Assembly: GCA_946480295.1 (NCBI GenBank)
Contig: CAMLIT010000109.1
Coordinates: forward strand, 1 to 14,399
DNA: 14,399 nt
Direction: 5' to 3'
Source: an uncultured Gemmatimonadota bacterium
Lineage (GTDB): Bacteria > Gemmatimonadota > Gemmatimonadetes > Gemmatimonadales > Gemmatimonadaceae
Shown: one piece after another, positions 1 to 14,399 of the stretch
How positions within the stretch are numbered: the first letter of the stretch is position 1
How the letters are laid out: each line of letters opens with the position of its first letter
Position numbers and translations under genes: made by a program
The notes under the pieces: generated by a model
The model's input: only the letters and a program-made list of their open reading frames with translations
What the model was told of the DNA's origin: nothing
Databases searched by the model: none

Positions 1-1062
1 GCGGCGATCAACCGCCGCTTCGGCCGGCGCGCGCTGTTCGTGGACGGGGAGCGGCCGTACGACCCCGGCGTCTTCTACTGCAAGGACGCGTTCGAGGGGC
101 TGGAGACGATGGACACGCTCCAGGACCCGGAGCGGCGCGCCGCCTTCACGGCGCGGCAGGTCGAGGACGCGCGGAAGGACGTGTTCCTCCACACCACCGT
201 CGGCAAGGACGTCGCGGTGGGCGACCAGGCCGGCGCGCGCAGCGACGTGTCGCAGGACCACGCCGTGCCCACGCCCCCCGCCTTCGGCACGCGCGTGCTG
301 GAGCAGATCCCGCTCGACGAGGTGTTCGAGGTGCTCGACCTCGACGAGCTGTATCGGCTGCAGTGGGGCGCGCGCGGCTCCGGGGCGCAGTTCGACGCGC
401 TCGTCAGGCAGGAGTTCGAGCCCACCCGCCTGCGCCTCGAGGCGGAGGCGAAACGCGAGGGGTGGCTCGCCCCACGCGCCGTCTACGGCTTCTTCCCCGC
501 GCAGTCGCAGGGGAACGATCTCGTCGTCTACGACCCCGAGGCGTACACCCGCGACGGCACGACGACGGAGCTCGCGCGCTTCCACTTCCCCCGCCAGGAG
601 GGGCGCGAGCGGCTCTGCATCGCCGACTACTTCCGCTCGACGGAGAGCGGCGACGTGGACGTCGTCGCCTTCCAGGTGGTGACGGTCGGCGAGAAGGCGC
701 AGCGGAAGTTCGACGAGCTGCAGGCGGCGGGCGAGTACGCCGAAGCACTGTACGTGCACGGCATCTCCGTGGAGGCCGCGGAGGCGACGGCGGAGTGGCT
801 GCACCGGCGGATCCGCCAGGAGCTCGGGATCCCGGGCGGCCGCGGGAAGCGCTACTCGTGGGGATACGGCGCGTGCCCCGAGCTGGAGGATCACGCGACG
901 CTCTTCTCGATCCTCCCCGCGGCGGAGGCGCTCGGCATGGAGCTGACGAGCGCGTACCAGCTCGTGCCCGAGCAGAGCACGGCGGCGATCATCGTGCACC
1001 ACCCGCAGGCCAGGTACTACGCGGTCCGCGGCCCAGCGGCCGACCGCATGGCGCTGGTATGA
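1..1062 (+). CDS. metH: Methionine synthase, cobalamin-dependent (3' part, start outside window)
   Basis: This is the C-terminal 353 residues of B12-dependent methionine synthase, which transfers the methyl group of methyl-tetrahydrofolate to homocysteine in the cytoplasm. The reading frame is open from base 1, so the true start lies upstream and the GTG at 40 is internal. The first ~45 residues (with KDAFEGLETMD) match the end of the cobalamin-binding domain. From about residue 100 to the end is the AdoMet-binding reactivation domain, which rescues oxidised cob(II)alamin by reductive methylation. Visible hallmarks are QWGARG, GFFPAQSQGNDL and the R284-Y-S-W-G-Y-G-A-C-P segment, matching the RxxxGYxACP motif that contacts AdoMet, and the terminal YYAVRG. 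The TGA overlaps the next start as ATGA, so the two genes are probably translationally coupled. Whether the missing part carries its own homocysteine-binding domain cannot be seen. Confidence 0.95.
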   Translation, partial: AAINRRFGRRALFVDGERPYDPGVFYCKDAFEGLETMDTLQDPERRAAFTARQVEDARKDVFLHTTVGKDVAVGDQAGARSDVSQDHAVPTPPAFGTRVLEQIPLDEVFEVLDLDELYRLQWGARGSGAQFDALVRQEFEPTRLRLEAEAKREGWLAPRAVYGFFPAQSQGNDLVVYDPEAYTRDGTTTELARFHFPRQEGRERLCIADYFRSTESGDVDVVAFQVVTVGEKAQRKFDELQAAGEYAEALYVHGISVEAAEATAEWLHRRIRQELGIPGGRGKRYSWGYGACPELEDHATLFSILPAAEALGMELTSAYQLVPEQSTAAIIVHHPQARYYAVRGPAADRMALV

Positions 1063-3071
1063 CCGACCCGCGGACGGAACCGCGTCCCGGGGTCCGGCAG
1101 CTCCTCGATCCCGACCGCATCGTCGTCTTCGACGGGGCGATGGGCACCATGCTGTACAACCGCGGCGTGTTCATCAACCAGTGCTACGACGAGCTGAACG
1201 TCCGCAGCCCGGAGCTCGTGCTCGCCGTGCACCGCGAGTACGTGAAGGCGGGGGTGGACGTGATCGAGACGAACACCTTCGGCGCGAACCGGCTGAAGCT
1301 CGCGCAGTACGGGCTGGAGGACCGGGTGGCGGAGCTCAACGAGGCCGCGGCGCGCCTGGCGCGCGAGGCCGCCGGCGAGCGGGTGCTCGTCGCCGGCTCC
1401 GTCGGGCCGCTGGGGGTGCGGCTCGAGCCGTACGGGCCGACGAGCCACGCCGAGGCGCGCGCCGTCTTCCGCGAGCAGCTCGAGAGCCTGCACGCGGCCG
1501 GCGTGGACTGCTTCATCTTCGAGACCTTCGCCGACCTCGCCGAGATCGCCGAGGCGGTCCGCGCCGCGCGCGAGGTCGCGCCGGCGGTGCCGGTGATCGC
1601 GCAGATGACGATCGGCGTGGACGGGCTCACACCGTACGGCGCGACGCCGGCGGACGTGGCGCGCACGCTCGACGAGATCGGGGCGGACGTCATCGGCCTG
1701 AACTGCTCCGTCGGGCCGCAGGCGATCCTCGAGGCGATCGAGAAGATGGCGCCGGCGACGCGGCGCAAGCTGAGCGCGCAGCCTAACGCGGGGATGCCGC
1801 GCGACGTCGGCGGCCGCAGCATGTACATGGCGAGCGCGGAGTACATGGCCAGCTACGCCCGCCACCTCATCCAGGCCGGGGCCAAGGTCGTCGGCGGCTG
1901 CTGCGGCACCACCCCGGAGCACCTGGCGGCGATGGTCGAGGGAGTGCGGCCGTTGCAGCCGCGGATGGCGGGGGGCGCGCGGGACGCGGGACGCGGGACG
2001 CGTGGTGGCGCGACGGCGTTCGACGGGACACCCGGGCGTGAGCCGGCACGCGATCTCGACCGGTCGGACGCGGCCCGCGTCGCGCGTCCCGCGGAGAGCG
2101 GACCGCGGAACGCGGACGGCATCTCCCCCGTCCCCTTCCCCGAGCGCTCCCGCCTCGCCGCGAAGCTCGCGGCCGGCGCGTTCGTCACCTCCGTCGAGAT
2201 CGTGCCCCCGCGCGGCGTGGACGCGTCGCGCATGCTCGCCGACGTGCGGCGGCTCAGGGTCGCCGGCGTCGACGCGGTCAACGTCCCCGACGGTCCACGC
2301 GCGCAGAGCCGGATGGGCGCGCTGATGACCAGCATCCTCATCGAGCAGCAGGTCGGGATCGAGACGGTCACCCACTACGCCTGCCGCGACCGCAACCTGC
2401 TCGGCATGCTCAGCGACCTGCTCGGCGCCTCCGCCGTCGGGCTGCGCAACTTCCTCTTCATCACCGGTGACCCGCCGAAGATGGGGCCGTACCCCAACGC
2501 CACCGCGGTGTTCGACATCGACTCGATCGGGCTCACGAACCTCGTGCGCAACCTGAACCACGGCCTCGATCCGGGCGGCAACACCATCGGCGCGCCGACG
2601 CAGTTCGCCGTCGGCGTCGGCGTCAATCCCGCGCCGATCGACCTCGAGCAGGAGATCCGCCGGTTCGAGTGGAAGGTGGACGCGGGCGCCGAGTTCTGCA
2701 TAACGCAGCCGGTGTTCGACGCCGAGCAGCTCGAGCGCTTCCTCGAGCGGATCGCGCACGTGCGCATCCCGGTCATTGCCGGCATCTGGCCGCTCGTCTC
2801 CGCCCGCAACGCCGAGTTCCTCGCCAACGAGGTTCCCGGCGTGTCGGTGCCCGCCCCCGTGCTCGGCCGCATGCGCGCCGCGAACGAGCGCTCGCGGGAG
2901 CACGCCGTCGCCGAGGGGATCGCCATCGCGCGCGAGATGCTGCAGCGCGTGCGCGGGCTCGTACAGGGCGTGCAGGTCTCGGCCCCGTTCGGCAAAGTCG
3001 AACTGGCGCTGCAGGTCTTCGCCGATACATTGGACGGAGAACCCACGGGCGAGGCTCTCACGCCGACCTGA
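1059..3071 (+). CDS. Bifunctional homocysteine S-methyltransferase / 5,10-methylenetetrahydrofolate reductase
   Basis: A 670-residue fusion of the type typified by Bacillus YitJ. The N-terminal half (about 1-302) is a homocysteine S-methyltransferase with D25-GAMGT near the start and the zinc ligands expected for the family: C216 in GLNCSVGP and C281-C282 in GGCCGTTPEH. The C-terminal half (about 363-670) is a FAD-dependent MTHFR that reduces methylene-THF to methyl-THF, with SVEIVPPRG carrying the likely catalytic Glu (E380) and NVPDGPR. ATG 1059 is chosen because it overlaps the metH stop (ATGA) and sits 24 residues before DGAMGT. No clear Shine-Dalgarno is visible, consistent with coupling. 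Odd feature: residues 303-362 form a long Gly/Arg/Ala/Asp-rich linker, much of it encoded by a 7-bp tandem repeat and its inverted copy. Both catalytic domains look intact, so the protein is probably functional. Confidence 0.93.
   Translation: MTDPRTEPRPGVRQLLDPDRIVVFDGAMGTMLYNRGVFINQCYDELNVRSPELVLAVHREYVKAGVDVIETNTFGANRLKLAQYGLEDRVAELNEAAARLAREAAGERVLVAGSVGPLGVRLEPYGPTSHAEARAVFREQLESLHAAGVDCFIFETFADLAEIAEAVRAAREVAPAVPVIAQMTIGVDGLTPYGATPADVARTLDEIGADVIGLNCSVGPQAILEAIEKMAPATRRKLSAQPNAGMPRDVGGRSMYMASAEYMASYARHLIQAGAKVVGGCCGTTPEHLAAMVEGVRPLQPRMAGGARDAGRGTRGGATAFDGTPGREPARDLDRSDAARVARPAESGPRNADGISPVPFPERSRLAAKLAAGAFVTSVEIVPPRGVDASRMLADVRRLRVAGVDAVNVPDGPRAQSRMGALMTSILIEQQVGIETVTHYACRDRNLLGMLSDLLGASAVGLRNFLFITGDPPKMGPYPNATAVFDIDSIGLTNLVRNLNHGLDPGGNTIGAPTQFAVGVGVNPAPIDLEQEIRRFEWKVDAGAEFCITQPVFDAEQLERFLERIAHVRIPVIAGIWPLVSARNAEFLANEVPGVSVPAPVLGRMRAANERSREHAVAEGIAIAREMLQRVRGLVQGVQVSAPFGKVELALQVFADTLDGEPTGEALTPT
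1978..2093. repeat. Heptamer-armed inverted repeat inside the fusion-gene linker
   Basis: The left arm (1978-2003) contains three exact tandem copies of GGGACGC at 1981-2001. The right arm (2068-2093) is its reverse complement with 24 of 26 positions matching and contains GCGTCCC at 2084-2090. The arms flank a 64-nt centre. The whole segment is read in frame as part of the 60-residue interdomain linker of the methyltransferase/MTHFR protein. GGGACGC differs by one base from the reverse complement of the intergenic TCGTCCC repeats found elsewhere in this window. I infer an in-frame acquisition of a dispersed repeat element; expansion of a native linker is the alternative. Confidence 0.8.
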
Positions 3072-4916: not shown

Positions 4917-5012
4917 AGCAGTGACGACAGTGAGATAGTGGACTGGAAGCGAGCGGGGACGTGAAAGGAACGGGTCGTGCAGCACGAACCGCCGCCGCCT
5001 TCACTCCACCAC

Positions 5013-5068
5013 TCGCCCCTCGTCCCTCGTCCCCTGCTCGTCCCTCGTCCCTCATCCCTCGTCCCTCG
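5013..5068. repeat. TCGTCCC heptamer array abutting a start codon
   Basis: Seven units of a 7-bp repeat: TCGCCCC (5013), TCGTCCC (5020), TCGTCCC (5027), a 4-bp interruption, TCGTCCC (5038), TCGTCCC (5045), TCATCCC (5052) and TCGTCCC (5059), then a partial TCG running directly into the ATG of the oxidoreductase gene at 5069. The array fills the place where the ribosome binding site and possibly part of the promoter would lie. The rest of the 152-bp gap (4917-5012) shows only weak AGTGA-type repetition near 4920-4945 and no terminator. Confidence 0.9.
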
Positions 5069-11819: not shown

Positions 11820-12116
11820 ATGGTCGCGTCGGTCGAGGCGATCTTCCTCTCGACCTTCGTCCTCATCTCGCAGAACCGGATGGCCGAGGTCGAGGACCGG
11901 CGGGCGGACCTCGACTTGCAGGTCAGCCTCCTCGCCGAGCACGAGATCACGCGCCTCGTGTCGCTCGTGACGGAGATGGCGAGGCGCATGGGGATCGACG
12001 AGGCGCTCGACCCGGCGCTCCAGGAGCTGCGGCGGGACGTGCGCCCCGAGCGGGTGCTCGAGCGGATGGATGCGCACGAGGACGTGATCGAGCGAGGAGG
12101 GGACGGGACATCGTGA
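11820..12116 (+). CDS. DUF1003 family membrane protein, 5'-truncated remnant
   Basis: A 98-residue frame containing the unmistakable C-terminal half of a DUF1003 protein: SVEAIFLSTFVLISQNRM, then DRRADLDLQVSLLAEHEITR and a helical tail ending in RPERVLERMD. Intact family members are usually about 150-200 residues with two membrane helices; here only the second helix remains. The family-like sequence extends upstream of the first start codon in the same frame: DPTFVILA is encoded at 11796-11819, overlapping the end of the lipoprotein gene, but no ATG, GTG or TTG exists in that frame back to a TGA at 11700. No Shine-Dalgarno precedes ATG 11820. The upstream DNA encodes the lipoprotein, so the N-terminal half is missing, not frameshifted. 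It is either a decaying pseudogene or a single-helix derivative translated by coupling. Its stop overlaps the next GTG start. Confidence 0.75.
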   Translation: MVASVEAIFLSTFVLISQNRMAEVEDRRADLDLQVSLLAEHEITRLVSLVTEMARRMGIDEALDPALQELRRDVRPERVLERMDAHEDVIERGGDGTS

Positions 12117-13590: not shown

Positions 13591-13655
13591 TCGAGCTGGC
13601 GTCGATGCCCGATCGACCGGGGACCCAGCGCACCGCGAAAGTGGCCAGCGGGAAC

Positions 13656-13676
13656 TCGTCCCTCGTCCCTCGTCCC
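13656..13676. repeat. TCGTCCC heptamer array (3 units) upstream of doxX
   Basis: Three exact copies of TCGTCCC at 13656, 13663 and 13670 run into a C-rich tract (13674-13689) that ends about 50 bp before the DoxX start codon. It is the same unit and orientation as the array before the oxidoreductase gene. Confidence 0.85.
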
Positions 13677-14347: not shown

Positions 14348-14399
14348 GCGTCCCTCGTCCCTCGTCCCTCGTCCCTCGTCCCTCGTCCCTCGTCCCTCG
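14348..14399. repeat. TCGTCCC heptamer array running off the window end
   Basis: One GCGTCCC unit (14348-14354) followed by six perfect TCGTCCC units (14355-14396) and a partial TCG at the window end, so total length is unknown. It is the most regular array in the window. The GCGTCCC leader directly links the intergenic TCGTCCC unit to the GGGACGC unit found in the methyltransferase/MTHFR linker. Confidence 0.92.

Follow-up and report, generated by a model that had tools for sequence, protein, structure and literature searches.

An in-frame, heptamer-armed hairpin in the linker of a bifunctional homocysteine S-methyltransferase/MTHFR as a probable member of a Gemmatimonadota class of genome-specific repeats

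The fusion gene and its hairpin

The window analyzed here is a stretch of 14,399 nucleotides from an uncultured Gemmatimonadota bacterium (GenBank assembly GCA_946480295.1, contig CAMLIT010000109.1). It carries a gene coding for a bifunctional homocysteine S-methyltransferase/MTHFR (PRK08645). The assignment relies on a score of 734.9 bits against NF006396, for a curated cut-off of 453, and on the presence of PF02574 followed by PF02219 in this order; the frame is intact (Table 1). By eye, the gene upstream (window 1-1062) resembles the C-terminal part of a cobalamin-dependent methionine synthase. Its end overlaps the start of the fusion gene by 4 nt.

A hairpin is located between the two Pfam domains, as the original prediction had placed it, and encodes residues 307-345. 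Its predicted anatomy, namely two 26-nt arms complementary at 24 positions (92%), a 64-nt centre and three GGGACGC units in the left arm, was recovered by an inverted-repeat search. In the left arm, TRF finds a tandem of period 7 with 3.6 copies and 100% match (1978-2002). The palindrome scores 20, whereas codon shuffling of the 91-codon linker gives at best 14 in 500 trials (0/500 equal the window) and the best palindrome in the remainder of the fusion gene scores 10. As RNA, the element has a folding energy of -81.6 kcal/mol, modestly beyond that of GC-rich shuffles (z-score -2.7). No match to the window was found in Rfam. The G-rich arm has three GGGACGC units, with a six-G run just upstream, where G-quadruplex heptamer repeats have four or more G tracts. 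The element is open in 5 of 6 reading frames and, like Rickettsia palindromic elements (RPE), it is a palindrome read in frame within a conserved protein gene. In an AlphaFold model of the fusion protein (20 sequences in the alignment, mean pLDDT 76, pTM 0.50), pLDDT is below 50 at residues 302-352 and secondary structure is absent from 300 to 359, with folded domains on either side. The hairpin-coded residues are thus predicted to sit in a disordered interdomain link.

Three other heptamer arrays, of the TCGTCCC type, are found in the window. All of them are unpaired and fall outside called genes when a home-made codon model is used for gene calling. Read as its reverse complement GCGTCCC, the linker unit differs from TCGTCCC by one base, the kinship pointed out in the original prediction. 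A perfect (CGTCCCT)n array (14349-14399) is cut off by the end of the window, so the repeat may have caused the contig break.

Table 1 Features of the fusion gene and heptamer arrays in the window
Feature	Position	Strand	Remarks
Bifunctional homocysteine S-methyltransferase/MTHFR gene, 670 aa	1059..3071	+	Open frame; NCBIfam NF006396
Homocysteine S-methyltransferase domain, residues 22-294	1122..1940	+	Pfam PF02574 (S-methyl_trans), E 1.9e-73
Hairpin, left arm	1978..2003	+	Three GGGACGC units at 1981-2001
Hairpin, core between arms, 64 nt	2004..2067	+	No convincing repeat in fetched sequences among listed blastn matches
Hairpin, right arm	2068..2093	+	Reverse complement of left arm, 24/26; heptamers partly degenerate
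MTHFR domain, residues 367-631	2157..2951	+	Pfam PF02219, E 2.1e-34
GGGACGA array, imperfect, intergenic	5012..5068	-	TRF period 7, 8.6 copies, 79% matches
GGGACGA array, intergenic	13655..13676	-	TRF, 3.1 copies
GGGACGA array	14349..14399	-	TRF, 7.3 perfect copies; reaches window end

Orthologous linkers and the repeat units of their genomes

The linker was delimited by two conserved motifs in the best 120 of 7,997 relatives scored in a protein search. Its length is 91 aa in the window, with a median of 67 and a range of 60-94 (n=120, namely the window and 119 homologues; the remaining one of the 120 listed lacks the motif). Linker DNA was collected from the best 80 of 334 genome contigs (75 titled Gemmatimonadota or Gemmatimonas relatives, one Roseisolibacter and four others); searches of 6 and of 395 genomes added to these, as did 60 further regions. 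Out of 173 sequences including the window, 162 gave a linker (111 distinct) and 11 gave none. The comparison of orthologues called for in the original prediction reveals no uniform linker, as the distinct linkers (n=111) vary both in length, from 54 to 112 aa, and in sequence. Period-7 arrays occur in 10 of the 111 linkers and a period-13 array in one, for 0.3 in shuffles; arrays of period 5, 8, 10 or 11 were found in none of the 111.

Palindromes above shuffle level are present in 12 of 111 linkers, against 2.8 expected. Five of them are far above this level, with scores of 20 to 30 (the window and linkers L106, L014, L092 and L087), and no other linker exceeds 12. All five are strong heptamer-armed hairpins. 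A weaker sixth, L029 (palindrome 12), was joined by eye because of its heptameric arms; L107, also at 12, is without heptamers. The strict array test misses L092, the units of which are too degenerate. The six hairpin-bearing linkers have six different units. On two quick trees of the 111 proteins with the linker omitted, the six carriers correspond to five changes, an approximate figure because many tree branches are weak. Even the sisters L087 and L092, 91% identical, have different heptamer units. Hairpin linkers measure 69-91 aa, and the 105 linkers counted as hairpin-free have a median of 63 aa, four of them exceeding the 91 aa of the window. Since the hairpin-free linkers cover the full range of 54-112 aa, the hairpin occupies room that linkers of the family have anyway, and the idea that the element gave rise to the linker had to be abandoned. 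In the 80%-identical relative P0002, the linker (RPEQSEGP...GHQDDK), judged from the protein only, resembles what we take to be a different small palindromic repeat.

Runs of three tandem units, with one mismatch and overlapping matches allowed, were counted in the same 15 genomes. GGGACTC, the L106 unit, has 536 matches in its own genome G086, 15 in G002, 2 in G365 and none in the others. GGGAACC (L014) has 51 matches in its own genome G002, 3 in G004, 1 in G257 and 0 elsewhere, the backward-pattern control giving 17 in G006. GTGGCGA (L087) is found 34 times in its own genome G365, once in G246 and not in the others (control: 1 in G003 and 4 in G077). For GGYRGAG (L092), the counts are 224 in its own genome G246, 17 in G004, 10 in G365, 1 in G001 and 0 in the others (control: 44 in G002, 39 in G004 and 5 in G005). 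GGGGTCR (L029) gives 11 matches in its own genome G003, two of which are the L029 linker itself, 10 in G006, 1 in G004 and 0 in the others (controls: 1 to 6 in four genomes). Therefore, in the five searchable carriers, the linker unit peaks in the genome to which it belongs among the 15, for L029 by only 11 to 10. The sister units of L087 and L092 are reciprocal, since either one is more frequent in the genome of its own linker (34 to 1 in G365 and 224 to 10 in G246). GGGACGM, the type found in the window, has 74 matches in G365, 5 in G086 and 0 in the others (control: 9 in G003). GGGACGC and GGGACGA are intermixed within single arrays of G365, which supports the link first drawn between the two units. 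The source genome of the window would be expected to behave like its relatives in repeat content.

Hairpins within and outside genes of relatives

Related elements, for which a search elsewhere had been proposed, are present as arrays in the window as well as in relatives. The 173 sequences, all picked around the fusion gene and in part overlapping (2.0 Mb), contain 35 strong inverted repeats, after removal of one run of N from an initial 36. According to a home-made gene caller, 27 are outside genes, one is half inside and 7 are inside, 5 of these 7 being the fusion-enzyme linker. We also analyzed regions of G365, G086 and G002 chosen around heptamer matches, about 9-11% of which is non-coding. 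Called genes contain 11 of 45, 25 of 68 and 17 of 34 period-7 arrays, respectively, and 3 of 23, 14 of 73 and 6 of 16 palindromes, some of them non-heptameric. In these three sampled relatives, heptamer hairpins are mostly intergenic and also occur in frame in genes. The proposal of an intergenic-type element turned coding without breaking the frame is supported in part: for the class, 27 of 35 repeats outside genes and the own-genome units speak for it, whereas the direction from intergenic to coding is one that we infer. The seven regions of G246, the fusion gene plus six chosen for the most part because both strands carry arrays, are not evidence of frequency.

G086 is Gemmatirosa kalamazoonensis, as indicated by 19 kb that match NZ_CP007129.1 at 100% and by a match to a second replicon. 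Among 27 GGGACTC hairpins sampled in this genome, 23 lie in gene-called regions; 8 of the 23 are intragenic, 7 with a strong coding score. As to the proposed check of other interdomain linkers, heptamer hairpins or arrays of relatives lie between or beside Pfam domains in DnaA, Mfd, MetH (two arrays), two hybrid histidine kinases, a SPOR protein, an SLBB export protein, an aldehyde dehydrogenase and DNA polymerase III alpha. In G365, such arrays are seen in MetH (L185 6473-6507 and 7382-7404) and in DNA polymerase III alpha (L187 1897-2136). Other copies fall within a Pfam stretch, in MutS domain III, in IleRS (two in G086, one in G002) and in a GAF-histidine kinase. One IleRS site bears hairpins of four units in 4 of 25 readable genomes (30 searched) and measures 34-40 aa with a hairpin versus 15-33 aa in the other 21 genomes. 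The units of L236 and L237 at this site were left out of the own-genome counts. G. kalamazoonensis has one full-length IleRS match, which bears two hairpins, and its best DnaA match contains the insert. DnaA was considered as a second recurrent site, with 19 of 24 fetched loci tried and one motif-less. A hairpin was found in just 1 of 18 readable linkers, and a period-7 array without hairpin in another. Further along the DnaA gene of Gemmatirosa (L205 5898-5932), a second GGGACTC array has no partner arm.

With 26 of 200 genomes in the phylum matching the GGGAMNC-type pattern, this part of the class has a patchy distribution. Seven is not an exclusive period, as G086 also has period-8 (17) and period-11 (9) arrays. 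In regions L193-L212 of Gemmatirosa, 73 palindromes were seen in 223 kb picked around GGGACTC matches, and many tandem-armed hairpins have units of about 8, 9 or 11 nt besides heptamers.

In the G086 sample, all 27 pairs have the G-rich arm first and 0 are reversed; 5 arrays are unpaired. At least four GGG tracts are present in 24 of the 27 left arms. In the 22 short loops, 6-mers are shared in 27 pairs, for a mean of 4.8 and a maximum of 15 in 500 shuffles. With all 27 loops the figures are 32 pairs against 13.2, but long unrelated loops are then mixed in and the short set was preferred. Short-loop families occur both within and outside genes, which points to copying of whole hairpins in G086. 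The L014 linker loop is similar to loops dispersed in its genome (longest shared word 6.4 on average versus 4.6, a value reached in 0/300 shuffles). The L106 linker loop fits none of the loop families of its genome, and hairpin cores of G365 differ from one another. For the window, the suggestion that the whole 116-bp element recurs was not borne out. Among the blastn matches listed against the fetched sequences, its 64-nt core has no convincing match (best E 0.02, 20 nt) and repetition is confined to the arms.

Target-site duplications, as expected of MITEs, were not above control in the 27 G086 hairpins (4 versus 6 in the control for k=4, 1 versus 3 for k=5). Five of 20 genomes, G002 among them, have the Y1 transposase domain Y1_Tnp (PF01797), which is absent from G086, G365, G246 and G003. 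RAYT mobilization is accordingly unsupported for these four.

As seven and three are coprime, all frames of a strand read a heptamer array as one heptapeptide cycle. Each of thirteen heptamer units tried yields one heptapeptide cycle per strand, and eleven are stop-free on both strands. In G086, 16 of 27 hairpins are open in six frames, compared with 73 of 703 intergenic 80-mers of unmatched length. Because hairpins are open in most frames, read-through is easy once the total length is a multiple of three.

Origin of the window element and comparison with known repeats

Taken together, the recurrent architecture and the own-genome units argue that the window element is quite probably an in-frame member of a Gemmatimonadota class of genome-specific heptamer-armed hairpin repeats. 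Each genome would favour its own heptamer or heptamers, forming scattered inverted pairs mostly between genes. As suggested by the loops shared in one genome, hairpin copies may well move as units. GC-rich units being usually stop-free on both strands, a hairpin would be readable in nearly any frame if its length is divisible by three. Intragenic copies would then persist where the frame is kept, no stop arises and extra residues are tolerated, as in interdomain linkers, tails and some loops. By such filtering, tolerated sites would retain hairpins and other sites would lose their copies. In the fusion gene, the hairpin would thus have become part of the disordered link between domains, presumably with a near-neutral effect on the enzyme.

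Local growth would be a different origin. A G-rich heptamer would have multiplied through slippage in a linker that tolerates it, and the second arm would stem from a template switch across the hairpin, with nothing brought in from elsewhere. The unique core of the window and the dissimilar cores of G365 fit with this idea, as do target-site duplications at control level and four genomes without Y1 transposase; moreover, according to the available part of one study, heptamers outnumber other long simple repeats in many bacteria (PMC4679880). However, slippage alone leaves arm pairing unexplained (27 pairs versus 5 unpaired arrays in the G086 sample). The linker unit also tracks the repertoire of its genome, and whole hairpins recur in G086 with loops in common, while the L014 loop looks like dispersed ones. 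We therefore hold local growth to be unlikely. For the window copy taken by itself, insertion and growth in place both stand.

Selection for the structure is much less probable still. In this view, the hairpin would slow ribosomes between domains or regulate the transcript, either as such or through a G-quadruplex formed by the G-rich arm. Its position at a domain boundary and its stable folding would suit such a role, as would the GGG tracts of the G086 left arms, comparable to those of Xanthomonas G4 repeats in the part of the source available (PMC4692102). Nevertheless, 105 of 111 orthologous linkers are counted as hairpin-free, copies are also found inside domains, in tails and in intergenic DNA, and the z-score of the window element is modest. 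Chance, or faulty assembly of GC-rich repetitive DNA, is hardly credible. The linker is indeed GC-rich and repeats such as the terminal array may disturb assembly, but no codon shuffle matches the palindrome score and the same arrangement recurs in other genomes, including Gemmatirosa, where hairpins are located on a 5.3-Mb contig.

A class of genome-specific hairpins can be compared with several known systems. As far as the available text of the sources goes, RPE are in-frame insertions within conserved genes; these and Wolbachia protein-coding palindromes resemble the present elements by a size of about 100-150 bp, by their intergenic and in-frame locations and by the extra residues that they add (PMC2229807, PMC10969869). 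As described there, RPE families encode a conserved peptide and their hosts are intracellular. Here, in contrast, arms are made of tandem heptamers, the unit varies by genome and the encoded peptide with it, and hosts are Gemmatimonadota. We therefore read the heptamer hairpins as candidates for a separate entity that would act like RPE. Heptamer arrays of Xanthomonas are often inverted and were described as G4 elements. With these GGGAATC-type repeats of Xanthomonas and Nostoc, the hairpins share G-rich heptamers, a preference for four units and a mostly intergenic location, and two Xanthomonas have 70 and 75 convergent inverted pairs, with 11% and 7% at least partly genic. The available part of that account deals with G-quadruplexes and transcripts and does not mention in-frame inserts, units specific to each relative or shared loops (PMC4692102). 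Four GGGAATC arrays were found in G002. REPINs are short dispersed hairpins with many copies, mobilized by RAYT. The hairpins studied here are also short and dispersed but, unlike REPINs, occur in genomes without a Y1_Tnp match (G086, G365, G246 and G003). TAACTGA heptamers of Beggiatoaceae likewise form abundant dispersed arrays, mostly intergenic; in contrast, as the available text has it, they are mainly direct repeats with stops in forward orientation, tolerated chiefly at protein ends (PMC4679880).

Rickettsia is described as having an unusual abundance of in-frame palindromes, and the available part of a 2024 review finds the same conceivable in other prokaryotes (PMC10969869). The hairpins appear to be another such case, of different architecture, in G. 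kalamazoonensis, which is cultured and free-living. Among the literature matches listed, which were open-licence only, none reports heptamer or in-frame palindromes in Gemmatimonadota, and absence from print is not thereby proven. Short repeats of G. kalamazoonensis were only counted, at about 11 per 100 kb and 471 in total with 90- and 150-bp classes; the main text does not contain the words heptamer, palindrome or tandem, and its available part does not mention coding copies (PMC11237797). Very likely, these two classes include the heptamer hairpins.

The passage of a repeat from intergenic DNA into proteins, the suitability of a 7-nt unit for it and the speed of linker rewriting become testable. 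Possibly, though we would not call it likely, the hairpins form a self-propagating, frame-neutral class with the repeat unit as sole identity, the current unit of each genome sweeping fixed tolerant sites and replacing the previous unit in both arms together. Protein linkers, including linkers and loops of essential proteins, would then be rewritten in step with the repeat repertoire of the genome. Another dispersed family was seen at locus L012, where 22 kb contain three intergenic palindromes, related to one another and about 200 bp long (11899-12094, 18036-18233 and 20185-20383).
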